Shown in pieces: positions 12,859 through 50,772 of a DNA stretch of 64,000 nt (the first letter of the stretch is position 1; every line of letters starts with the position of its first letter). The stretch comes from Myxococcota bacterium (GTDB taxonomy: Bacteria > Myxococcota > XYA12-FULL-58-9 > JALHOP01). The notes beneath the pieces were generated by a model. That model saw nothing but the letters and a program-made list of their open reading frames with translations. It was not told the DNA's origin and did not search any database. A program made the translations under genes and the position numbers. The stretch spans positions 248,001-312,000 of the forward strand of contig JALHOP010000008.1 of assembly GCA_022842935.1 (NCBI GenBank). The letters are read 5' to 3'.

Positions 12859-14247
12859 ATGGCGCTCATGTCCGGTGCGGTCGGTAACATTCTCGATGCA
12901 GTGGGTTGCACGCCACTGGTGAAGCTCAACCACGTGGGCGCACACACCAAAGCCGAGATCTACGCGAAGTGCGAGTTCCTCAATCCCGGCGGGTCCATGA
13001 AGGACCGCATCGCCATCAACATCATGAACGAAGCCGAGGCGCGCGGCGAGATCCGCCCCGGCGGAACCATCGTCGAGGCGACGAGCGGCAACACGGGTAT
13101 GGGCCTCGCGCTTGTCGCGGCCGTGCGCGGTTACAAGTGCGTGTTCGTGATGCCGGACAAGATGTCCGACGAGAAGATCCGCGTGCTGCGCGCCGTCGGG
13201 GCGAAGGTCGTCGTCTGTCCAACCGACGTCGAGCCCGAGGATCCCCGCAGCTACTACTCGGTCTCGCGACGCATCGCCGAAGAGACGCCGAACGCGATGC
13301 TCGCCAACCAGTACCACAATCCCGCCAACCCCGAGGCCCACTACAAGAGCACCGGCCCCGAACTGTGGAACCAGACCAAAGGCGAGCTCGATGTCTTCGT
13401 GTCCGGCATGGGCACCGGTGGGACGCTCTCCGGTACCGGCAAGTACCTCAAAGAGCAGAAGCCATCGATCCAGGTCGTGGGCGTCGATCCTGTCGGCTCG
13501 CTCTACTACGACTACGTGAAGACCGGTCGCGTGACGACCGCTCATCCGTACAAGGTCGAGGGCATCGGCGAGGACTTCTTCCCCTCGACCATGAACCTCA
13601 AGATCTTGGATGAAGTCATCCGCGTCACCGACAAAGAATGCTTCATGGCGGCGCGCGACATGGTCAAGAAAGAGGGAATCCTCTGCGGCGGCTCTGCCGG
13701 TGCCGCGGTCATCGGAGCGGTGAAGTACGCCGAGATGATGAACAAGCCGATGAAGATCGTCGTGCTCTTGCCCGACAGCGCTGTGCGCTACCTCACCAAG
13801 TACCTCGACGACGAGTGGATGCGCCAAAACGGATTCTTGGGACCAGAGCCGGGACTTGGGCGCGTAAGCGACCTCCTCGCTCAGCGGCCCAAGGTGACGC
13901 TACAAACCGCGCAGGCGAAAGATCCGGTGAAGCAGATCATCATGCGCATGAAGGAGCACGGTATCAGTCAGGTACCGGTTCTCGACGGCACCAAGATCAT
14001 GGGCCTCGTCAACGAGCGCGACCTCTTGCAGTTCTTCATGACACAAAACGCGAAGCTCGAAGGCGAGGTCGGCCCCTTGGTCGACACGCAGTTCACGACC
14101 GTCGACACGGCGACCCCGGTCGCGACGCTGTCGGGCCTGTTCAACCAGAACCCGGTCGTGCTCGTCGTGGAGAACCGCGAGCTGAAGGCGGTGATCACCA
14201 AGATCGACCTCATCGAATACATGGCCAAACACCTAAACGCTGCTTGA
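12859..14247 (+). CDS. Cystathionine beta-synthase with C-terminal CBS domain pair
   Basis: A 462-residue fold-type II PLP enzyme. The PLP Lys is in NPGGSMKDR, the substrate/phosphate loops are TSGNTGMGLA and GMGTGGTLSG, and a Bateman pair of CBS domains fills about residues 345-455. It should condense serine with homocysteine to cystathionine, the first step of reverse transsulfuration. The CBS pair allows allosteric control by an adenosyl ligand. The gene follows the lipoprotein gene by 11 bp with an AGAGG-type ribosome-binding site. Cystathionine gamma-lyase, the partner activity, may be encoded at 22.1-23.2 kb. Confidence 0.9.
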   Translation: MALMSGAVGNILDAVGCTPLVKLNHVGAHTKAEIYAKCEFLNPGGSMKDRIAINIMNEAEARGEIRPGGTIVEATSGNTGMGLALVAAVRGYKCVFVMPDKMSDEKIRVLRAVGAKVVVCPTDVEPEDPRSYYSVSRRIAEETPNAMLANQYHNPANPEAHYKSTGPELWNQTKGELDVFVSGMGTGGTLSGTGKYLKEQKPSIQVVGVDPVGSLYYDYVKTGRVTTAHPYKVEGIGEDFFPSTMNLKILDEVIRVTDKECFMAARDMVKKEGILCGGSAGAAVIGAVKYAEMMNKPMKIVVLLPDSAVRYLTKYLDDEWMRQNGFLGPEPGLGRVSDLLAQRPKVTLQTAQAKDPVKQIIMRMKEHGISQVPVLDGTKIMGLVNERDLLQFFMTQNAKLEGEVGPLVDTQFTTVDTATPVATLSGLFNQNPVVLVVENRELKAVITKIDLIEYMAKHLNAA

Positions 14248-15127: not shown

Positions 15128-16423
15128 TCAGGCAGCCTTCTGCTCGGCTTGATAGGGCGCAACCTTCAAGAGCAGCAGCATGCCCGGGAGAGCCAGCGCG
15201 GTACACAGAAAGAAGAAGTTCAGCCAACCGACCGTTTCGATGATCTTACCCGTGTACGCGTTCACCAGCGACCGTGGCACCGCGGCCAGACTCGTGAACA
15301 GCGCGTATTGCGTCGCGGTGTACATCGGGTTCGTCGTACGCGCGATGAACGCCACCAAGGCAGCGCTGCCGAGACCCACACCTAGCGCTTCGAAGCCGAT
15401 CACCGCTGCCAGCGACACCAGCCGTCCGGAGTCCGCTGGCGACGGCCCCTGCCAGGCGAGCCACGCGAATCCCAAGATCGAGACGACCTGAACCACGCCG
15501 AAAATCCACAGCGCCCGGTTGATGCCGAGCTTCACCATCCAGACACCGCCCAGAAGACCGCCGATTACGGCGGGCCAAAGGCCGGCGTTCTTCGCGACGA
15601 TGCCGATCTCCGACTTGGTGAAGCCCATGTCCAGGTAGAAGAGCGTAGCGTTGGCGGTGCACATGGCGTCGCCCAGCTTGTAGAGAAACATGAAGGCGAG
15701 AATGAGCGCCGCCGTTTGCCATCCCGCCCGGGTCATGAACTCGCGAAAGGGTTCGACGACCGCTTTATAGATGGTGCGCGGCGCGGATACTGCGACAGGC
15801 TCGGCGATGAGCAGAGTCGTCACCAAGCCCGGCAACATGAAGAGCGCAACAATGGGGAAGACCCAGCGCCATTCGATGCGGTCGGCGAGGATGAGCGCGA
15901 CTGAGCCGGGGATGAGTCCCGCCACGCGGTAAGCGTTGACGTAGAGGGAGTTGCCCATGCCGAGCTCGCTCTCGTTCAGGAGCTCCCGGCGGTACGCGTC
16001 GATGACGATGTCCTGCGTAGCGGACACGAACGCGAGCGATACCACTGCGACGATGATCGGCATCATCTGCTCGGAGGGCGATAGCTGCCCGACCATCGCG
16101 ATGATCAGGATGAGCAAGACTTGGGTTGCGAGCATCCAGGTCCGGCGACGCCCAAAGCTCTGAATGCCATAGCGGTCGACGAGTGGCGCCCAGAGAAACT
16201 TCCAGGTGTACGGCAGCTGCGCCAGCGCGAACGCCGCGATGGTCTTGATGTTGATCTCGTAGGACCTCATCCAGGCCGGCAACATGTTCAAGAAAATGAA
16301 CAGAGGAAGCCCAGAGGTGAATCCTCCTGAGGCGCAGATGAGCATGCGCCGGTTCGCGACGACCTTCCAGATCGAGGGTTTGCCCTCGGGGATCGCGGTC
16401 CTTGCAGTCACTGCAACGCTCAT
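15128..16423 (-). CDS. MFS permease, AmpG-like
   Basis: A 431-residue protein with about 12 membrane helices. The first half carries the AmpG hallmark PYTWKFLWAPLVDRY after GGFTSGLPLFIF and WMRSYEINIKTIA. The second half has LGDAMCTANATLFYLDMGFTKSEIG. AmpG imports anhydromuropeptides for peptidoglycan recycling; some homologues have other substrates. ATG 16423 gives a standard cytoplasmic start, and the longer upstream frame is not family-like. It is divergent from the ligase operon with a gap of about 110 bp, a likely shared promoter region. Confidence 0.8.
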   Translation of the reverse strand: MSVAVTARTAIPEGKPSIWKVVANRRMLICASGGFTSGLPLFIFLNMLPAWMRSYEINIKTIAAFALAQLPYTWKFLWAPLVDRYGIQSFGRRRTWMLATQVLLILIIAMVGQLSPSEQMMPIIVAVVSLAFVSATQDIVIDAYRRELLNESELGMGNSLYVNAYRVAGLIPGSVALILADRIEWRWVFPIVALFMLPGLVTTLLIAEPVAVSAPRTIYKAVVEPFREFMTRAGWQTAALILAFMFLYKLGDAMCTANATLFYLDMGFTKSEIGIVAKNAGLWPAVIGGLLGGVWMVKLGINRALWIFGVVQVVSILGFAWLAWQGPSPADSGRLVSLAAVIGFEALGVGLGSAALVAFIARTTNPMYTATQYALFTSLAAVPRSLVNAYTGKIIETVGWLNFFFLCTALALPGMLLLLKVAPYQAEQKAA

Positions 16424-16536
16424 AGCGCCCAAAGCCAAGGCAGGGCAAAGTGTTGGCGCAGGCAAGGCTTCACATCGGTGCTGGCGTGTGCCAAACCGAT
16501 AGGCATCAAATACAGGGGTGAGCGGCACAGCGGCGG

Positions 16537-17292
16537 ATGGAAACGCGCAAGATACCCTTCGAGATTTGGCGACAACCGGATGAGACGACGTGCGGCCCCA
16601 CGTGTCTCCACGCCATCTACAACCACTACGGCGATGCCATCGACCTCGACAAGCTCGTTACCGAGGTCACACAGCTCTCTGGAGGCGGGACCTACGCCGT
16701 GCATCTGGCGAACCACGCCTTGAAGCGTGGCTATCCCGTTCGCCTGTACTCCTACAATATGCAGGTCTTCGACCCGACGTGGTTCCAGGGCAACGTCGAC
16801 CTCTCGCAGAAGCTCCTCGCCCGCCGGGAGGTCATGAAGTCTCCTGACTTGCGGGGGGCGGCCGATGCCTACTTGCAGTTCATCCGCTTGGGCGGCGAGC
16901 TGCGCTGGCGTGACCTCACTGCCTCGCTCATCCGCAAGTACATCAGCCGTAGCGTTCCCATCCTGACTGGCCTCTCGGCGACGTATCTCTACCAGAGCGC
17001 CCGCGAGAGCACCGTCAACCAAGACTACGATGACGTGCGTGGCGAGCCCACCGGCCACTTCGTCGTGCTCACCGGCTACGACGCCGAGGAGCGAAATGTC
17101 CTCATCGCCGATCCTTATCCTGTTGCCGAAGGGCACAAGTACGCGGTCAACATCGATCGCGTGTTGTGTTCCATCCTATTGGGAGTGCTGACCTATGACG
17201 CAAACCTCGTCATCATCGGGAGCCGCCAAGCCCACCGAAACGAGTTCAGCGGCGTCACCCAGAGACCCGCAGGCGTCGTCCGTCGGCGGTGA
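16537..17292 (+). CDS. C39/papain-like cysteine peptidase, first gene of a ligase operon
   Basis: A 251-residue protein with the C39-like catalytic set: Gln13 and Cys19 in WRQPDETTCGPTCLHAIY, His174 in PTGHFVVLTGYD and Asp192 in IADPYP. There is no signal peptide or transporter fusion, so it should act in the cytoplasm, unlike bacteriocin-exporter C39 domains. It opens a four-gene operon and its 3' end overlaps the RimK-like gene by 98 bp. The product could cleave a peptide substrate or act as a transpeptidase on the peptide made by the two downstream ligases. Confidence 0.75.
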   Translation: METRKIPFEIWRQPDETTCGPTCLHAIYNHYGDAIDLDKLVTEVTQLSGGGTYAVHLANHALKRGYPVRLYSYNMQVFDPTWFQGNVDLSQKLLARREVMKSPDLRGAADAYLQFIRLGGELRWRDLTASLIRKYISRSVPILTGLSATYLYQSARESTVNQDYDDVRGEPTGHFVVLTGYDAEERNVLIADPYPVAEGHKYAVNIDRVLCSILLGVLTYDANLVIIGSRQAHRNEFSGVTQRPAGVVRRR

Positions 17293-18889
17293 CGAAGCGG
17301 CTCCCGAGTGGACGAGCGACACGGCGAAGGGCGAAAGCGCTCAACGCAGGGTGAAGCGCGCTGCGCAGCCGGTTCGTCTCGAGACCGTCGACACCAAAGC
17401 GACCGCCGAGGTTCCCAACACCATCATCGTGGTCGACAACCCGAAGGACTTCGCGCTGGGCGTGCCGAACGTCAAGGTCATATCGGCGCGCAACTATCTC
17501 TCTGACGGGTCTCTGCAGGCGCGCCGGCGCCTCAAAGTCTTCAACCTCTGCAAGAGCTATCGCTACCAGAGTGTCGGCTATTACGTATCGCTCCTGGCCG
17601 AAGCGCGCGGGCATCGTCCCTTGCCAAGCGTCGCCACAATCCAGGACATGAAGCTCCAGACACTCATCAGACTGACCTCCGAGGAGCTCGACGAGCTCAT
17701 TCAGAAGACGCTCTCGACCATGCCGACGAACGAAGTGGAGCTGCACATTTACTTCGGCCGCAGCGTGTACTCGATGTACGAGCGGCTCGCCTTGCAACTG
17801 TTCAACCTCTTCCAGGCTCCGTTTTTGCGGGCAGACTTTGCGAAGCGCGAAGGCACCTGGGAGCTGCAGGCCATCGGTCCGATCGCGGCCAACGAGATCC
17901 CGGCGCACGAGATCCCCCACGTCATCGGCTTCTGCCGTGAATACTTTGCCGGCCGTCGTCGCGTCTCGGCCAAGGAGAAACCGGCACGCTACGAGCTGGC
18001 GATCTTGTGGGACGCCAAAGAGAAAACATCGCCCTCGGACGAGAAGGCCATTAAGCGCATCACGCGGGCCGCCGAGGCCAAGGACCTGAACGTCGAGATC
18101 CTCGGCAAGGACGACTACGCCCGCATCGGTGAGTTCGATGCCCTACTCATTCGCGAGACAACTGCCGTCAACCATCACACGTATCGCTTCGCGCGCCGAG
18201 CTGCCGCTGAAGGCCTGGTGGTCATCGATGACCCCCATTCGATTCTACGCTGCACCAACAAGGTCTATCTCGCCGAGCTCCTGGCGCGGCACCAGATCCC
18301 GACACCCAAGACGCTCGTCGTGCATGACGATAATATCGCCCTCATTCAGAAGACACTGGGCCTCCCCTGTGTGCTCAAGCAGCCGGATAGCTCCTTCTCG
18401 CAGGGTGTCGTCAGGGTCGAGACTAAGGATCGACTCGTGTCCGTCGTCGAGGACTACCTGGAGAAAAGCGAGCTGGTCATCGCGCAGGAATACATTCCGA
18501 CCGAGTTCGACTGGCGAGTCGGCGTGCTCGACAAGAAGCCACTGTTCGTCTGCAAGTATTTCATGGCCCGCCGTCACTGGCAGATCGTCAAAAACGAAGA
18601 CGACGGCGACAAGGACTTCGGGCGCGTCGAGTGCGTGGCCATCGAAGACGCCCCGCACGAGCTCATTCGAGTCGCCGTGGGCGCCGCCAATCTCATTGGC
18701 GACGGACTCTACGGCGTCGACGTCAAGCAGCTCGCCGACAACAAGTTCGTGGTCATCGAGATCAACGACAATCCGAACATCGATGCCGGTTACGAGGACT
18801 CCGTGGGTAAAGACAGTCTCTATGCCCGACTCATCGACGTCTTCATACGGCGGCTCGAGGCGCGTACCGACCGGAGTGCCCGTCCATGA
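17195..18889 (+). CDS. RimK-like ATP-grasp ligase with N-terminal RLAN-type domain
   Basis: A 564-residue protein. A Ser/Ala-rich leader (about 1-70) precedes a RimK-associated N-terminal domain (about 75-260, from NTIIVVDNPKDF). A RimK-type ATP-grasp domain fills the C-terminal half, with DDPHSILRCTNKVYLAELLARHQIPTPKT, VLKQPDSSFSQGV and the metal/ATP residues in VVIEINDNPNIDAGYED. It is predicted to form an amide bond between a carboxylate and an amino acid. The ATG at 17195 overlaps the peptidase gene by 98 bp; GTG at 17351 is an alternative that would remove the overlap. Its stop overlaps the GCS2 start by 4 bp. Confidence 0.82.
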   Translation: MTQTSSSSGAAKPTETSSAASPRDPQASSVGGDEAAPEWTSDTAKGESAQRRVKRAAQPVRLETVDTKATAEVPNTIIVVDNPKDFALGVPNVKVISARNYLSDGSLQARRRLKVFNLCKSYRYQSVGYYVSLLAEARGHRPLPSVATIQDMKLQTLIRLTSEELDELIQKTLSTMPTNEVELHIYFGRSVYSMYERLALQLFNLFQAPFLRADFAKREGTWELQAIGPIAANEIPAHEIPHVIGFCREYFAGRRRVSAKEKPARYELAILWDAKEKTSPSDEKAIKRITRAAEAKDLNVEILGKDDYARIGEFDALLIRETTAVNHHTYRFARRAAAEGLVVIDDPHSILRCTNKVYLAELLARHQIPTPKTLVVHDDNIALIQKTLGLPCVLKQPDSSFSQGVVRVETKDRLVSVVEDYLEKSELVIAQEYIPTEFDWRVGVLDKKPLFVCKYFMARRHWQIVKNEDDGDKDFGRVECVAIEDAPHELIRVAVGAANLIGDGLYGVDVKQLADNKFVVIEINDNPNIDAGYEDSVGKDSLYARLIDVFIRRLEARTDRSARP

Positions 18890-20115
18890 CACTTTCGCTG
18901 TTTCAAGGCTTCGGCGTCGAGCTCGAGTACATGGTGGTCGCCGAGGGCAGCCTCGACGTCATGCCCATCGTCGACGAGCTGTTCTTGCAATACGCGGGGT
19001 CGTACGTCTCCGACATCGAACGTGGTCCGCTATCCTGGTCGAACGAGCTGGTCGCGCACGTCGTCGAGCTCAAGACCACCATGCCCGTCGGCACGCTCGA
19101 TGGGGTCGCGGCCGCTTTCCAGCGTGACGTGCAAGAGATCAACCGGTTGCTCGCGGGCAGCGATGCCCGCCTACTGCCAACCGGCATGCACCCGTGGATG
19201 GACCCGAGCAAAGAAACGCGTCTGTGGCCGCACGACAACGACGCCATCTACAAGGCCTTTGACCGCGTCTTCGGTTGTAGCGGACACGGTTGGTCGAACC
19301 TGCAAAGTGCTCATCTCAACCTGCCGTTTGCAAACGACGCCGAGTTCGGAAAGCTCCACGCGGCGATTCGTTTGATCTTGCCGCTCATTCCCGCGCTCTC
19401 GGCAAGCACCCCGTTCATGGACGGCAAGCTCGGCGGCGCGCTCGACCAGCGTCTGGCCGTCTACCGCACCAACTCCAAGCGCATCCCGTCGGTCTGCGGC
19501 CGTGTGATCCCCGAGCCGGTCTATACGCGCGCGACCTACGAGCGCGACCTGCTCGGACGCATCTATGCCGACATCGCACCACTCGACCCCGAGGGAATTC
19601 TCCAGGACGAGTTCTTGAACGCTCGCGGTGCAATCGCGCGGTTCGGTCGCGGCAGTATCGAGATCCGCATCATCGATACCCAGGAATGCCCAGCCGCCGA
19701 CCTTGCGATCATCGCGCTCGTCGTGACGACCCTCGAAGACCTCGTCGCCGAGCGATGGAGCACAGGGCGCGAGCAGGCGGGCTGGCCGACCGAGCGCTTG
19801 GCCGACCTCTACGACCGCGTGGTGGCCGAAGGCGACCTCGCCGTCATCGACGACCCGGAGTACCTGCGGACATTCGGTCTCGGCGTCGAAAAGGCGACCG
19901 CCGCCGAGGTCTGGCACGCCATCCTCGAACTCGTGGTCGGGGCACCGCGGTTGCAGCAGCACCTACCTGCCTTGTCGATCTTGACCCAGGGGGGCCCCTT
20001 AGCTCGCCGCATCGTACGTCGCACCGGCCAGAAGCCCAAACGCGAGAAGCTTCACGAAGTCTACTCCGAGCTCTCCCAATGCCTCTCGCAGGGGCGAATG
20101 CTGAGTGCCTCATGA
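18886..20115 (+). CDS. GCS2-type carboxylate-amine ligase (glutamate-cysteine ligase-like)
   Basis: A 409-residue member of the glutamate-cysteine ligase 2 superfamily. The ATP/metal motif GVELEY is at residues 10-15, then ELKTTMPVG, a SAHLNLPF block and FGRGSIEIRIIDTQECP. Family members use ATP to link an amino acid through a gamma-carboxylate. It is translationally coupled to both neighbours by ATGA overlaps. Together with the ATP-grasp enzyme it could build a short gamma-linked peptide. Replacement of GshA/GshB in glutathione synthesis is a second possibility, considering glyoxalases elsewhere in the window. Confidence 0.82.
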   Translation: MTLSLFQGFGVELEYMVVAEGSLDVMPIVDELFLQYAGSYVSDIERGPLSWSNELVAHVVELKTTMPVGTLDGVAAAFQRDVQEINRLLAGSDARLLPTGMHPWMDPSKETRLWPHDNDAIYKAFDRVFGCSGHGWSNLQSAHLNLPFANDAEFGKLHAAIRLILPLIPALSASTPFMDGKLGGALDQRLAVYRTNSKRIPSVCGRVIPEPVYTRATYERDLLGRIYADIAPLDPEGILQDEFLNARGAIARFGRGSIEIRIIDTQECPAADLAIIALVVTTLEDLVAERWSTGREQAGWPTERLADLYDRVVAEGDLAVIDDPEYLRTFGLGVEKATAAEVWHAILELVVGAPRLQQHLPALSILTQGGPLARRIVRRTGQKPKREKLHEVYSELSQCLSQGRMLSAS

Positions 20116-20825
20116 TGGGACAAGTTGGCCTCGTGCTCTCCTGTGAGCACGCAGGTAACGAAGTGCCCCAGGTCTTCTCGACCAGCTTTCGAGCGAGCAA
20201 ACAGACTCTGGGGAGTCATCGCGGCTACGATCCCGGCGCTCACGCCCTGGCGCAGGCATTCGCGACGACCCTCGGCCTGCGACTCTACGCGCAAAGTGTC
20301 TCGCGCCTCCTCATCGACTGCAACCGGTCCGAGGATAGCCCGACGCTGTTCTCGCCGTTCAGCCCCCTCACGGCGGACGCACGGGCGCGCCTGCTCAATG
20401 AGCACTACCGCCCCTATCGTGACGCAGTGAAGGCCGAGGTCGAGCGGCTACTCAGCATACACGTGCGCGTCGTTCATCTGTCGGTGCACAGTTTCACGCC
20501 CGAGCTGCGCGGTAAGGTGCGCGCCACCGACATCGGCCTGCTTTTCGATCCGACCCATGCGTTCGAGACCTCGGTCTGCAGCCGCTGGCGAAGCGCTCTC
20601 TTGTCCACGAAAACGGACTATGTCGTGCATGACAACGAGCCCTATCGCGGCGACGGCGATGGTCTCACCACCACGTTGCGCAACACCTTCCCGCGCGACC
20701 GCTACGCGGGCATCGAGCTCGAGGTAAACCAGAAGTATCCACGTCGACACCCAGTGCGCTGGAGCGCGATGCAACTCTTGGTCACCACCACCTTCGCGAC
20801 GGCCATCCGCCAGCTCACTTCTTGA
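20112..20825 (+). CDS. N-formylglutamate amidohydrolase-like hydrolase
   Basis: 237 residues matching the FGase fold: VLSCEHAGNEVP at the N terminus, GYDPGAHALA, LLIDCNRSEDSP, VVHLSVHSFTP and the terminal IELEVNQKYP block. Known members hydrolyse N-formylglutamate, but many homologues lie outside histidine catabolism. No hut genes are present here, so hydrolysis of a capped or gamma-linked glutamyl product is more plausible. ATG 20112 overlaps the previous stop (ATGA), completing the operon. The 3' end overlaps the convergent GNAT gene by 11 bp. Confidence 0.82.
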   Translation: MMGQVGLVLSCEHAGNEVPQVFSTSFRASKQTLGSHRGYDPGAHALAQAFATTLGLRLYAQSVSRLLIDCNRSEDSPTLFSPFSPLTADARARLLNEHYRPYRDAVKAEVERLLSIHVRVVHLSVHSFTPELRGKVRATDIGLLFDPTHAFETSVCSRWRSALLSTKTDYVVHDNEPYRGDGDGLTTTLRNTFPRDRYAGIELEVNQKYPRRHPVRWSAMQLLVTTTFATAIRQLTS

Positions 20826-21282
20826 GGTCGGCCGTCATGATGACGCGCGTTAGGGCGGTGAAACCCTGACGCTCGTATAGAGCGCGCGCCCGCGCGTTGG
20901 CGGCGTTGGTCTCGAGGGTCAAGCGCACCCAGCCGCGCTCCTTTGCAACGGCCGTGGCGAGCGCCAGTATTCGGCCGCCGATACCGGCCCCCCGTCGCTC
21001 GGCGCGAACGAACAACTCATCGACGACACCAACGACACCGCCATATTCGTTCGAGAAGAACGGCACGAGGATCACATAGCCGACGACCTCGTCGCCCAGC
21101 CTGACCAGGAACGGGGAGACCTTCTCGGGCTCACGCAACATGCGCTCGGCCTGGGCAGTCGCGCGCTCCGACGTCATCACGGTGCTGCTCGGGTCGTCCA
21201 CGTACAGCCGCACGACCATCGCCGCGAAGGTCGAAACGTCGGCGCGCTCGAGAGGCGTCAGGATGAATTCAGAACGTGTCAC
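20815..21282 (-). CDS. GNAT family N-acetyltransferase
   Basis: About 155 residues with the GNAT core: GYVILVPFF, VDELFVRAERRGAGIGGRIL (acetyl-CoA loop near residue 105) and LTLETNAANARARALYERQGF. The substrate is unknown. GNAT genes are recalled from related ATP-grasp/C39 loci, so its position facing that operon may be meaningful. The start is uncertain: GTG 21282 overlaps the glyoxalase II stop by 14 bp, whereas ATG 21312 would overlap by 44 bp. It is probably co-transcribed with glyoxalase II. Confidence 0.8.
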   Translation of the reverse strand: MTRSEFILTPLERADVSTFAAMVVRLYVDDPSSTVMTSERATAQAERMLREPEKVSPFLVRLGDEVVGYVILVPFFSNEYGGVVGVVDELFVRAERRGAGIGGRILALATAVAKERGWVRLTLETNAANARARALYERQGFTALTRVIMTADLKK

Positions 21283-21976
21283 GGGCTTGGCGACGTTCTG
21301 TAAACGTCGCAAGGTCGGGTGAACGCAAGAACGGATTCACGGCGCGCTCGACGCCGATGGTCGATGGGAGCGAAGGCACCCCGCTCGCACGCAAGGACTG
21401 AACTTCGGCAAGTCGCCTGGATACCGCGTCGTTCGTTGGCTCGGTCGCGGCCGCGAACGCAAGGTTCTTTTCAGTGTACTCATGGCCGCAGAAGACCTTG
21501 GTATCGTCCGGAAGCTCGCCCAGGCGACGCAACGAGTCGAAAAGCTGACCCGCGGTGCCCTCGAACAGACGCCCGCAGCCGGCGGAGAACATGGTGTCGC
21601 CGGTGAAAACCATTCCCCCGCCGTAGTAGCAAACCGCGCCCGAGGTGTGGCCGGGGGTTTCCATGATGGTGAACATCGTGCCCGCCACCGTGATGGTCGT
21701 GCCATCGCTCACTCCGCGGGTGACACCTGGAATTCGACGCAGGTCGCTCGTCGAAGCGAAGACATCGACATCGGAGCTTGCAAGGCCAATGACCCCCGCA
21801 ACGTGGTCCCGATGATGATGCGTGAGCAGAATTGCCTCGACCTCGAGCCCACTCTCTTTGAGGTACCTCTGCACCGGCTCGAGCTCGCCCGGATCGATGA
21901 CCACGCAACGGTCGCCGTTCTCGACGACCCAGACGTAGTTGTCGGAGAGAACCGGAATGGGCCTGACAGTGACCAT
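21269..21976 (-). CDS. gloB: Hydroxyacylglutathione hydrolase (glyoxalase II)
   Basis: A 235-residue metallo-beta-lactamase fold enzyme. The binuclear metal site is shown by THHHRDH, PGHTSG, FTGDTMFSAGCGR and CGHEYT. The GCGRLFEGTAGQ segment is typical of glyoxalase II, which hydrolyses S-lactoylglutathione. A glyoxalase I candidate lies at 58.4 kb. The presence of both implies glutathione or a similar thiol in the cell. Its 3' end overlaps the GNAT gene. Confidence 0.9.
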   Translation of the reverse strand: MVTVRPIPVLSDNYVWVVENGDRCVVIDPGELEPVQRYLKESGLEVEAILLTHHHRDHVAGVIGLASSDVDVFASTSDLRRIPGVTRGVSDGTTITVAGTMFTIMETPGHTSGAVCYYGGGMVFTGDTMFSAGCGRLFEGTAGQLFDSLRRLGELPDDTKVFCGHEYTEKNLAFAAATEPTNDAVSRRLAEVQSLRASGVPSLPSTIGVERAVNPFLRSPDLATFTERRQARDTF

Positions 21977-22059
21977 GAAGCACAGTGTTATAGCGTACGG
22001 ACGACTGGCGCCAAGTGGTGTTGATCGCCCCGGGTTGCAAACCTCGGGTCCAGCTCGCT

Positions 22060-23232
22060 ATGACAGCGCGCACCATGCGATTCGACACCCTAGCGATTCA
22101 CGCCGGCCAGAAGCCGGATCCCGTCACCGGCGCCATCATGACCCCGGTTTACCAAACCTCGACCTACGTCCAGGAAGGCCCAGGCGAGCATAAAGGCTTC
22201 GAATACAGCCGTACCCACAACCTGACGCGGTATGCCCTCGAGGATAACCTGGCGGCGCTCGAAGGGGCCTCCCTAGGGGTTGCCTTCGCAAGTGGCCTCG
22301 CCGCCACGACGACCGTCATGCACACGCTGAAGGCTGGCGATCACGTCATTTGCGGCGACGACGTTTACGGCGGCACCTTCCGGCTGTTCGACAAGGTCCT
22401 ACGCCACATGGGCCTGTCGTTTTCGTATGTCGATCTGTGCGATGAGAAGGCCTTCGCGGCCGCCATTCGCCCCGAGACGAAGGTGGTGTGGCTCGAGACA
22501 CCAACCAACCCGATGCTCAAGGTCATCGACATCGAGACCATTGCGGGGATTGCCCACAAGCGCGGCGTGAAGGTGTTTGTCGACAACACCTTTTGCTCGC
22601 CAGCGATTCAGCAACCGCTCAAGCTCGGCGCTGACCTGGTCATGCACTCGACCACGAAGTTCCTCAACGGCCACTCCGACGTCGTGGGTGGGTTTGCCTG
22701 CACGAGCGACAAGGAGCTCGGCGAGCGCCTGAAGTTCCTGCAAAACGCGATCGGCGCCGTGCCCGGTCCCTGGGACGCATGGCTCGTGCTCCGCGGCACC
22801 AAGACGCTGCACGTCCGTATGAAGGCGCATGACATGAACGGCCGTCGGGTCGCCGCGTTCCTCGCGGAGAGCGCGGATATCGAAAAAGTGTATTACCCGG
22901 GCCTGTCCTCGCATCCGCAGCATGCCATCGCCCAGAAACAAATGAAGGGCTACGGCGGCATGATCTCGTGCGTGGTCAAGGGGGGCCTGCCGCGGGCGCG
23001 CGCCTTCCTGAAATCGCTCAAGATCTTCGCCCTGGCCGAGTCGCTGGGTGGAGTCGAGTCGCTCATCGAGCACCCGGCCATCATGACGCACGCGTCGGTG
23101 CCACCCGAGACGCGCAAGAAGCTCGGTATCGACGATGGCTTTATCCGCCTCTCCGTCGGTATCGAAGACGTCCAGGACCTGCTCGACGACATCGCGCAGG
23201 CGCTCGTCGCGAGCGCTCACCTCGCCGGATGA
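22060..23232 (+). CDS. Cystathionine gamma-lyase/gamma-synthase (Cys/Met metabolism PLP enzyme)
   Basis: About 390 residues, fold-type I. Signature segments are FDTLAIHAGQKPDP, YSRTHNLTRYALEDNLAALEG, WLETPTNPMLKVIDI, VDNTFCSPAIQQPL, the PLP Lys region HSTTKFLNGHSDVVGG, and SLGGVESLIEHPAIMTHASVPPE near the C terminus. Lyase and synthase activities cannot be separated by eye. The cystathionine beta-synthase gene in the window favours lyase. ATG 22060 or ATG 22075 are both possible. It ends in an ATGA overlap with a small secreted-protein gene. Confidence 0.88.
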   Translation: MTARTMRFDTLAIHAGQKPDPVTGAIMTPVYQTSTYVQEGPGEHKGFEYSRTHNLTRYALEDNLAALEGASLGVAFASGLAATTTVMHTLKAGDHVICGDDVYGGTFRLFDKVLRHMGLSFSYVDLCDEKAFAAAIRPETKVVWLETPTNPMLKVIDIETIAGIAHKRGVKVFVDNTFCSPAIQQPLKLGADLVMHSTTKFLNGHSDVVGGFACTSDKELGERLKFLQNAIGAVPGPWDAWLVLRGTKTLHVRMKAHDMNGRRVAAFLAESADIEKVYYPGLSSHPQHAIAQKQMKGYGGMISCVVKGGLPRARAFLKSLKIFALAESLGGVESLIEHPAIMTHASVPPETRKKLGIDDGFIRLSVGIEDVQDLLDDIAQALVASAHLAG

Positions 23233-23705
23233 AGACGCTCTTTGGTTTGCTGCTCGTCATGTTGCTCGCGCGTCCGGCAGGGGCGACGCGCGCCTTGCCG
23301 GTGAGCCTCGAGTCCCTCACGCGCACCGCCCAGCTCATTGTCGATGGCGACGCGCAACGAGGCCAGAGCTTCCGCATCGACGGACGTATTTTCACGCGTG
23401 TCGAGGTGCGCGTGCGCGGCGTATGGAAAGGTGATGAGCGTCCCGCATCGGTGAGCATCGTCCTTCGCGGCGGCGTCGTCGACGGTGTCGGCCAGCGTGT
23501 GGATGGCGAAGCGGTGCTCGAGGAAGGTGACCACGCGGTCCTCTTCCTGCGCTACGACGAGGACCTCGCCGGATACCGTCCGGTCGCACTCGAACAAGGC
23601 GCGTTCCGTGTCCGCGCGAGTGACGACGGACGCTCGGCGCGCCTCGACGCCATTAACCTACCGAGCTTCGAGCGCCGGGTCCGAGGACTTGTGCGTGCGC
23701 CGTAG
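23229..23705 (+). CDS. Hypothetical secreted protein
   Basis: 158 residues with a clear signal peptide (MKTLFGLLLVMLLARPAGA). The mature protein is beta-rich (LIVDGDAQRGQSFRIDGRIFTRVEVRVRG... DHAVLFLRYDED) and matches no family I can name. The pattern recalls small secreted proteins seen beside myxobacterial matrixins. It overlaps the PLP-enzyme stop (ATGA) and its own 3' end overlaps the matrixin start, so all three are probably co-transcribed. Confidence 0.7.
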   Translation: MKTLFGLLLVMLLARPAGATRALPVSLESLTRTAQLIVDGDAQRGQSFRIDGRIFTRVEVRVRGVWKGDERPASVSIVLRGGVVDGVGQRVDGEAVLEEGDHAVLFLRYDEDLAGYRPVALEQGAFRVRASDDGRSARLDAINLPSFERRVRGLVRAP

Positions 23706-24654
23706 CGCCCTTGCGGTTCTCGTGATTGTGGGCTGCATGTGCGCCCCCGCCGTGGCGCGGGCTTTCGCCTGTGCCCGCGTCAGTACAACGGGTGGCAGCG
23801 AGGGCGCTTCACTCGCATGGTTCTCACGCACCATCACCTTTACCCTCTTTGCGGCCGGTACCAACGACATCGCTGGCGATGCCGAGCGTGACGTCCTGCG
23901 CGAATCGTTCGCGGTCTGGGCGGGACTGGACCTCGGTGACGACGTTGTGGACTGTCAGCTCGCAGCGGGGGTCGACCTTACGTTCGTCGAGACGTCGCTC
24001 TCGACCACCGACCGTATCGGCTATGACTTCGGAGATCCCGCGGCAACGGAGAACCTGCTCATCTTCCGCGATAGCGGATGGGATAGCGCGGAAAACAATG
24101 TCATCGCACTCACCACCACGACCTACGACCCGGTGAGCGGAGAGATCCTCGACGCGGACATCGAGTTCAATAGCACCGTGTTCGACTTCACCATCACGGA
24201 TGATGGTGTGGCGATGGATCTGAAGAACACGGCGGTCCACGAGATCGGCCACTTCTTGGGCCTAGCACACACCTCGAGTGCGTTCCCGCGCGCGACGATG
24301 GCAGCGCGCGCCGTACCGGGCGAGGTCGAAAAGCGCGACCTTGCCTGCGATGACGCGACCGCCATCACCTTCAAGTATCCGACCGGCAGCGAGAACGGCT
24401 ATTGCAGCCCTCCCACACCCGCATGCGGCAACTGCGCGCCGCCCGACGCCGCGACGAGCGAAGCCGTCGTCCGGGTCACCGCGCAGTCGGCCAACGGTGA
24501 CCTCGGAGGCTGCGCGGCGACGGCACCCTCCTGGCTGATGCTGGTCGCCGGGCTTGCTTTCGGCAGGTGGCTTGGTGCGGAGCGGTCGCGACGCGCGTTA
24601 CGCTCGGGTCGACTTCAGGCGCTCTTGAGCGAACGCGCCACGTCCGCGAACTGA
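23695..24654 (+). CDS. Matrixin-type zinc metalloprotease with MYXO-CTERM-like tail
   Basis: About 319 residues. A signal peptide (VRRSALAVLVIVGCMCAPAVARA) precedes a matrixin domain with the zinc motif HEIGHFLGLAH (HExxHxxGxxH) and a metzincin-like region after it. The C terminus carries a Cys (GDLGGC), a hydrophobic stretch (SWLMLVAGLAFGRWL) and basic residues (RSRRALR). This layout resembles the MYXO-CTERM surface-sorting signal. GTG 23695 overlaps the preceding stop by 11 bp and gives the signal peptide. The protease is probably exported and anchored at the cell surface. Confidence 0.75.
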   Translation: MRRSALAVLVIVGCMCAPAVARAFACARVSTTGGSEGASLAWFSRTITFTLFAAGTNDIAGDAERDVLRESFAVWAGLDLGDDVVDCQLAAGVDLTFVETSLSTTDRIGYDFGDPAATENLLIFRDSGWDSAENNVIALTTTTYDPVSGEILDADIEFNSTVFDFTITDDGVAMDLKNTAVHEIGHFLGLAHTSSAFPRATMAARAVPGEVEKRDLACDDATAITFKYPTGSENGYCSPPTPACGNCAPPDAATSEAVVRVTAQSANGDLGGCAATAPSWLMLVAGLAFGRWLGAERSRRALRSGRLQALLSERATSAN

Positions 24655-46650: not shown

Positions 46651-46659
46651 TAAAATTAT

Positions 46660-46776
46660 TCCGGCAGCGACCTACTCTCCCACACGGTTACCCGTGCAGT
46701 ACCATTGGCTCAGGTGGGCTTAACTTCCGAGTTCGAGATGGGATCGGGTGGAACCCCACCGACATTGCCACCGGAA
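46660..46776 (-). rRNA. rrf: 5S ribosomal RNA
   Basis: The minus strand opens with TCCGGTGGCAATGTCGG and closes with a complementary CGCTGCCGGA. It contains the conserved CCCATCTCGAACTCGGAAGTTAAG block. Length about 117 bases. It is the last gene of the rRNA operon. Confidence 0.93.
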
Positions 46777-46785
46777 ACTTAAAAC

Positions 46786-46800
46786 ACTGAATAGTAAGAA
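46786..46800 (-). other. 3' half of outer 23S processing stem
   Basis: ACTGAATAGTAAGAA here is the perfect 15-base complement of TTCTTACTATTCAGT at 50240-50254 on the other side of 23S. The two can pair in the precursor, as in RNase III processing stems. Confidence 0.6.
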
Positions 46801-46923
46801 CTTGTCGAATCTTGGCGAGAGCGTGTGAACAACTCTCTAGAAGCTTACGCTTCTCTCTGAATCATCGCACTCGGCGATGTTTTGTGCGGTCTATTTCGAG
46901 ACCGCACTCTGCGTGCTACGCGC

Positions 46924-46939
46924 TGAAATCTAGCTTCGA
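46924..46939 (-). other. 3' half of inner 23S processing stem
   Basis: TGAAATCTAGCTTCGA pairs perfectly over 16 bases with TCGAAGCTAGATTTCA at 49977-49992. Together these flank the mature 23S closely. Confidence 0.65.
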
Positions 46940-46954
46940 ACCACTAGAAAAACA

Positions 46955-49925
<2,971 letters not shown>

Positions 49926-50378
49926 TTTTTCTGGCGACCGCTCTTGCGAGCGACCGCTTCGAATAATCGACGCAGCTCGAAGCTAGATTTCAAAACGTAG
50001 CTTGGTTCTTTCGAACTAATGAATGCTGATGTGTCTCACGACAGCATCAACTTCCAGACTTCGTCATCTGCCCATCTCGCCGCTGCGGCTCGATGTTTGA
50101 CTACTACCGCGTCTCACGACGCAGAGAGTGCAGTGACGATAAACAGTGAGAATCGTTCGCTTCTAAAGAGTATTGTTCTTTACGTGTCGTCTAATCCGCT
50201 GACGCGGACCAAACACACTCGCGTTTGATTCGATATCGTTTCTTACTATTCAGTTTTCAAAGAGCACTTCGAAACCATCCGAGCACACACCCATGAAGAG
50301 CATGGCCGGATCTGTATCGATCTGTTTCACGTGTACTGATGTCGCGTATCCCCACTCCGCCTCGACCCAGAGGGTCGA
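49926..50378 (-). other. tRNA-Ala to 23S spacer with boxA and processing-stem halves
   Basis: This 450-bp spacer has no gene. It holds the 5' halves of both 23S processing stems (49977-49992 and 50240-50254). It also has an antitermination boxA-like sequence (minus strand TGCTCTTTG, complement of 50258-50266) just upstream of the outer stem. Confidence 0.6.
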
Positions 50379-50454
50379 TGGTGGAGCCGATGGGGATCGA
50401 ACCCACGGCCTCAGGCTTGCAAAGCCCGCGCTCTCCCAGCTGAGCTACGGCCCC
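50379..50454 (-). tRNA. tRNA-Ala (TGC), CCA encoded
   Basis: The minus-strand sequence opens GGGGCCGTAGCTCAGC. It has a TTTGCAA anticodon loop with TGC, a GGTTCGATCC T-arm, and an acceptor end CGGCTCC-A-CCA with CCA in the DNA. It sits between tRNA-Ile and 23S, as in many rRNA spacers. Confidence 0.95.
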
Positions 50455-50698
50455 GTCTCGTTGCCTTGACGGCTTCGAGGTGGTTCACATCGACATCACC
50501 GACGAACATTGGGTTGCGTTCGTCGTTTTCGTGAGCCGCGCCTTCTAGCTGCGATGCTCACGTGCTGTCAACCTCTTTTTTTGCTGCCGTCGTTTTTGTT
50601 TCGGCGCAGGTTTTTGCGAGGTTGGCCGGGCGGGTCTAACGAAGTTGCGCCTGAAGTGGCGGGCAACGAAGACTGCGCGGCGCGGATGCAGGACTGAA
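50455..50698 (-). other. tRNA-Ile to tRNA-Ala spacer
   Basis: 244 bp without gene or obvious structure. It is long compared with the few tens of bases usual between these two tRNAs. Confidence 0.4.

Positions 50699-50772
<74 letters not shown>

Follow-up and report, generated by a model that had tools for sequence, protein, structure and literature searches.

What do two different ATP-dependent amide ligases, a papain-fold cysteine enzyme and a zinc amidohydrolase make, or take apart, when their genes stand together in one operon? The question is raised by positions 16537-20825 of a 64,000-nucleotide stretch of a Myxococcota bacterium genome (assembly GCA_022842935.1, contig JALHOP010000008.1, positions 248,001 to 312,000), hereafter the window, in which an earlier note made from the sequence alone saw a candidate undescribed peptide-modification system. 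Our results demonstrate that three of the genes, encoding a C39-type enzyme, an RLAN-RimK ligase and a GCS2-family ligase, are a genuine conserved unit, inherited together in a neighborhood kept far beyond chance, and that the fourth, encoding an FGase-family hydrolase, is an optional accessory linked less tightly than the other three. The chemistry classes of the enzymes are supported, and a joint role can be proposed tentatively: the explanation that we prefer, placing it somewhat short of an even chance, is that the cassette is an RLAN-type amidoligase system that makes and trims a glutamyl-type peptide or conjugate, short and soluble.

All four open reading frames (ORFs) are intact and on the plus strand, at the coordinates first reported, and all four proteins score over the curated Pfam cut-offs. 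The first gene (16537-17292) encodes a C39 papain-fold cysteine enzyme of the C39_2 type (251 aa; PF13529, Peptidase_C39_2, 49 bits, and PF03412). The second (17195-18889; 564 aa counted from ATG 17195) encodes a carboxylate-amine ligase described in the earlier note as a RimK ATP-grasp enzyme. Its RimK-type ATP-grasp domain (18257-18784, residues 355-530; PF08443, 48.6 bits against a cut-off of 21), with an invariant Lys pair and an Asp/Glu/Asn metal site, bears this out, but the description missed the RLAN domain N-terminal to it (17486-17911, residues 98-239; PF14401, 162.7 bits against a cut-off of 25), which scores higher than any other domain of the protein and is its diagnostic feature. 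A carboxylate-amine ligase of the GCS2 family, in the GshA/YbdK superfamily, follows (18886-20115, 409 aa; PF04107, 92.3 bits against a cut-off of 21), and then the FGase-family zinc amidohydrolase (20112-20825, 237 aa; PF05013, 110 bits). The two reported 4-bp overlaps, between the RLAN-RimK and GCS2 genes and between the GCS2 and FGase genes, are present as described, but the reported 98-bp overlap of the C39 and RLAN-RimK genes arises only if ATG 17195 is the start. This is probably the wrong start codon, because the ATP-grasp proteins of relatives begin about 75 residues later, without the low-complexity N-terminus, because the codon composition of the overlapping stretch is like that of the C39 gene and not of the ATP-grasp gene, and because an in-frame alternative, GTG 17351, lies 58 bp past the C39 stop. 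That GTG is possibly the true start.

To quantify conservation, the RLAN-RimK ligase was scanned against genome contigs, which yielded at least 80 loci at 48-57% identity; 80 listed loci, seven relatives from the window's own phylum and the window itself make up a set of 88, chosen by RLAN similarity and therefore saying little about C39 or GCS2 relatives elsewhere. The C39_2 gene, directly upstream of RLAN in the window, is present in 73 of the 88 loci, and C39, RLAN and GCS2 are found together in 69, so that the four-gene-order search suggested in the earlier note did find a conserved neighborhood. FGase accompanies the other three in 42 of the 69, mostly directly downstream: the plain order C39-RLAN-GCS2-FGase occurs in 40, another has this order with an RLAN frame that is too long, and in the last FGase is encoded on the opposite strand. 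In a further locus (L042) FGase lies about 5 kb off. Spacing is 100 bp or less in 65 of 73, 66 of 73 and 33 of 42 gene pairs, with a median C39-RLAN gap in relatives of 2 bp. The cassette spans at least seven phyla, its hosts including Thermodesulfobacteriota, beta- and gammaproteobacteria, Planctomycetota, Bacteroidota, Balneolota and Spirochaetota. Within the window's phylum its distribution is patchy, since in the larger sample 8 of 195 genomes carry RLAN. Among 58 genomes of that phylum, C39 and RLAN are present in the identical eight, and GCS2 in the same eight plus one; an identical set of eight would be expected by chance about once in 1.9 billion trials if relatedness is ignored. Divergence of the C39, RLAN and GCS2 proteins is also correlated (r = 0.80-0.85, Mantel p = 0.001), with a value of 0.76 for FGase against RLAN, and FGase is absent from one genome (G005) and located elsewhere in two (G008 and G029).

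Three side observations concern relatives of the cassette. RLAN-GCS2-FGase also occurs on a Legionella plasmid, where each gene has its own annotation. In a relative from the same phylum, an ATP-grasp gene of the LAL_C2 (L-amino acid ligase) type (L095:6816-7985, minus strand) shares 4 bp with the C39 gene, and this third cassette ligase is a clue to dipeptide chemistry. A lone related GCS2 (L108:1381-2820, genome G013) adjoins a glycerol-3-phosphate dehydrogenase-like FAD oxidoreductase in a genome without C39 or RLAN.

All-against-all clustering of the flanking ORFs revealed no fifth conserved gene; the other ORF families that many loci share turned out to be scattered genes, or shadows of the four genes read antisense or out of frame. 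These results bear on a reading in which the cassette matures a graspetide-like ribosomal peptide with the C39 enzyme as leader peptidase. C39 domains cut double-glycine leaders and ATP-grasp ligases macrocyclize graspetides (PMC8939145), yet no small ORF is conserved up to 1.2 kb from the operon in the 88 loci, ABC ATPases occurred in only eight loci at scattered positions and strands, with no recurrent ABC transporter, and the RLAN-RimK ligase is nearer to RimK and LysX in fold searches, making this reading highly improbable. Even less probable is a role in recycling or editing murein peptides, suggested by the divergent AmpG-family transporter (15128-16528, 474 bits) that adjoins the operon; AmpG was near the operon in no relative searched, and the link is local. 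Cystathionine beta-synthase, GloB-type and cystathionine gamma-synthase/lyase-type genes and a START-like ORF were likewise rejected as context along with AmpG, as none recurs next to the operon in relatives. The GNAT acetyltransferase gene (20815-21312, minus strand; Pfam Acetyltransf_1) does face the operon tail to tail, as the earlier note stated, but is not a partner: no homologue adjoins the operon in 80 relatives, and the gene is local to the window genome. A phage or defense link was also discarded, the searches giving one weak PHROG match to the ATP-grasp protein and nothing in PADLOC.

A sister form of the neighborhood does contain GNAT. In Azospirillum and Tistrella replicons, a fusion of GNAT with DUF3335 (PF11814), a C39-like papain family, is followed by an RLAN ligase, whereas the window genome lacks DUF3335 and its papain-like partner is a stand-alone C39_2 protein. 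In an RLAN tree built by a quick method with a midpoint root, all the C39/GCS2-linked RLANs, together with a few secondary solo RLANs, form one side of a split (96% SH-aLRT support) whose other side holds the GNAT-DUF3335 RLANs. DUF3335 was found in one of 29 RLAN-bearing genomes checked, that of Desulfopila, one of seven solo-RLAN genomes searched; there it is GNAT-fused and neither C39 nor GCS2 is present, a lone case suggesting that GNAT-DUF3335 can take the place of both. Gallionellaceae and their kin (L018, L025, L027, L032, L033, L045, L060) have kept an apparently complete RLAN-RimK, and C39 and GCS2 were absent from the four genomes of this clade that were searched (L018, L025, L032, L045), suggesting that the betaproteobacterial solo RLAN-RimK has a function of its own.

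Catalytic residues are invariant in all four cassette families. Measured against the named NCBIfam equivalogs, all four proteins fall short. In the C39 enzyme, Cys19 (codon 16591-16593), His174 and Asp192, correctly identified before, are invariant in 37 homologues, as is Gln13, likely the oxyanion-hole residue. The triad and the Gln place the protein among papain-fold C39 enzymes. Its N-terminus has no hydrophobic stretch, and the enzyme is therefore probably cytoplasmic. The AlphaFold2 model has a mean pLDDT of 91.7. BtrH_N has been described as close to C39 (PMC10318531).

The ATP-grasp residues K281, K320, D434, E447 and N449 of the RLAN-RimK ligase are invariant, and the RLAN domain has conserved Asn, Cys/Ser, Tyr-Gln, Arg and His residues. 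The best Foldseek matches of its AlphaFold2 model (pLDDT 88.7) are RimK (5zct, E = 3.8e-18), ArgX and LysX. The protein does not reach the RimK equivalog or family cut-offs (PRK10446, 41.4 against 331; TIGR00768, 79.1 against 143.4). In Pseudomonas aeruginosa RimK, R64, R189 and N262 contact bound poly-glutamate (PMC10092738), and in a profile alignment their counterparts are kept in RLAN-RimK, which implies that this ligase would activate a C-terminal-type carboxylate. The same features lend themselves to a second explanation, less probable than the one we prefer and still a serious contender, in which the cassette is a writer and eraser of protein tags like RimK-RimB: RLAN-RimK would add to a protein C-terminus or side chain, C39 would remove the addition, and GCS2 would supply the residue or an isopeptide branch. 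The nearest folds, RimK, ArgX and LysX, all work on protein C-termini, the acceptor contacts of RimK are retained, the extra RLAN domain could bind protein, the occurrence of RLAN alone in some lineages would suit a ligase with its own acceptor, and in Pseudomonas RimK has the protease RimB as its partner (PMC12239564). However, RimB is a retropepsin and not a papain-fold enzyme, the cassette has no conserved neighbor gene that could encode the target, and GCS2 and FGase are better known for acting on small molecules.

GCS2 residues E10, E12, E52 and E59 (trimmed numbering), and also G8, are invariant in 36 homologues, and they include the GxExE motif, the metal signature of gamma-glutamyl ligases (PMC2588565). 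The protein nevertheless scores under the GshA/YbdK cut-offs (TIGR02050, 49.5 against 176.4; TIGR02048, 27 against 249), so that both ligases fall outside the canonical GshA/GshB and RimK families. FGase, with invariant EH, H, D, R, H, H and ExE residues, is not HutG (TIGR02017, 40.6 against a cut-off of 278.75); its closest solved relative in a PDB profile search is Atu2144 (PDB 2odf, 2.3e-40), which is itself uncharacterized. The second hypothesis of the earlier note, synthesis of glutathione or a glutathione-like thiol with GCS2 as GshA and RLAN-RimK as GshB, is attractive insofar as two ligase superfamilies fit two steps, and genes for a cystathionine beta-synthase (12859-14247), a GloB-type hydroxyacylglutathione hydrolase (21269-21976) and a cystathionine gamma-synthase/lyase-type enzyme (22015-23232) lie near the operon. 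These sulfur genes are not next to the operon in relatives, however, and both cassette ligases are far under every named GshA or GshB cut-off. The window genome has a separate plant-type GshA-like GCS2 (G000:C8:233273-234133; at 439.8 bits narrowly short of the TIGR01436 cut-off of 463) and a separate GshB over its cut-off (331.8 against 299), and among 37 RLAN-bearing genomes a clear GshB occurs in five and no match at all in 15. Because of these separate genes and this survey, the cassette does not appear to be the glutathione pathway of the cell, and we consider the hypothesis very unlikely.

Ligation of a peptide followed by its trimming, as first proposed, is still the best reading, with FGase demoted to an optional fourth member. 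Two ATP-dependent amide ligases, a cysteine acyl-transfer enzyme and an optional zinc amidohydrolase point to the building and trimming of glutamyl-type amides, and a small free product is favored because neither a protein target nor a conserved small precursor ORF is linked to the operon. On this basis GCS2 would act in the cytoplasm, activating the gamma-carboxylate of glutamate or a similar substrate with ATP and joining it to an amine. RLAN-RimK would then activate a C-terminal-type carboxylate, carried either by the GCS2 product or by an acceptor that RLAN binds, and add a further amino acid or amine. The C39 enzyme may form a Cys acyl-enzyme with the conjugate and so either cleave it or, in the manner of phytochelatin synthase and BtrH, pass the acyl group on, and FGase, where present, may strip an N-acyl or glutamyl cap.

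Several observations weigh against this proposal. RLAN can serve some function alone, since seven solo-RLAN genomes searched, from several lineages, have neither this C39 nor this GCS2 elsewhere. The counterparts of the substrate-side RimK residues S7 and R8 are not conserved in RLAN-RimK, and the side chain that it handles may therefore not be Glu. Finally, the Foldseek matches of the C39 model, which include the ComA and PCAT peptidase domains, the pseudomurein endoisopeptidase PeiR and the glutathione-cleaving phytochelatin synthase Alr0975, have TM-scores of just 0.4-0.5, and so do not tell cleavage and transfer apart. A bolder and rather unlikely extension is that the cassette is a pathway devoted to a new glutamyl-type metabolite, or to an isopeptide protein mark, in use across many phyla, with C39 as a transferase passing a gamma-glutamyl group between the two ligases, and GNAT-DUF3335 performing the equivalent step in the sister clade.

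The window has two further features away from the operon. At 46659-50772 on the minus strand, 5S, 23S, tRNA-Ala and tRNA-Ile genes stand in rRNA-operon order, with no 16S after tRNA-Ile or anywhere in the window (no Rfam match and no conserved 16S primer sites); 16S is either unlinked in this lineage or was dropped from the assembly. At 23485-24654 lies a gene for a metalloprotease like the myxosortase-dependent MXAN_2677/2678 family, at 131 bits, under the cut-off of 250, which is a hint that the genome is from Myxococcota or kin.

A cassette kept together in organisms as far apart as Nitrosomonas, Planctomycetes, Bacteroidota and Spirochaetes must be of use through what it makes or removes. 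Databases label its genes singly and misleadingly, as 'RimK family protein', 'glutamate-cysteine ligase family protein' and 'N-formylglutamate amidohydrolase'. Finding the product would bring to light either a small peptide, new and widespread, or a bacterial protein modification of a new kind, and for the RLAN domain it would mean a first function. Iyer and colleagues reportedly defined RLAN in 2009, with neighbors including papain-like/GNAT fusions and GCS2, and are said to have predicted peptide synthesis or modification; on that account the cassette is a variant of a predicted, uncharacterized kind of RLAN neighborhood. The four-gene set was described nowhere in the literature searched, which did not extend to Iyer et al. 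2009, and to call the system undescribed, as had been done, is too strong in view of the RLAN family links. A later paper cites Iyer et al. 2009 for DUF3335-GNAT fusions. As far as the literature searched goes, the following are new: the conservation across phyla, the occurrence of C39 and RLAN in exactly matching sets of genomes of a phylum, the division of the systems into a C39/GCS2 and a GNAT-DUF3335 form, and, for the window locus, the setting aside of the GNAT and glutathione readings.

Four known systems resemble the cassette in part. Like GshA/GshB with phytochelatin synthase, it combines GCS2-fold and ATP-grasp ligases with a papain enzyme of phytochelatin-synthase-like topology, but it lies outside those families, in a genome that has its own GshA-like and GshB genes. 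In the gamma-glutamyl protection of butirosin, BtrJ is an ATP-grasp ligase and BtrH a papain-fold acyltransferase, and the glutamyl cap is removed later; the cassette would share this enzyme pair and cap-removal logic, although no carrier protein or natural-product genes lie alongside it. The RimK-RimB system of Pseudomonas, which acts in RpsF polyglutamylation, likewise joins a RimK-fold ligase, with the same acceptor Arg/Arg/Asn residues, to a peptidase; the cassette differs in scoring under the RimK equivalog cut-off, in its extra RLAN domain, in its papain-fold instead of retropepsin partner, and in the added GCS2. With the GNAT-DUF3335 neighborhoods it shares the same RLAN-RimK ligase adjoining a C39-like papain-fold enzyme, and it is set apart from them by a separate C39_2 protein free of GNAT, by the GCS2 ligase and optional FGase that follow, and by an RLAN clade of its own.

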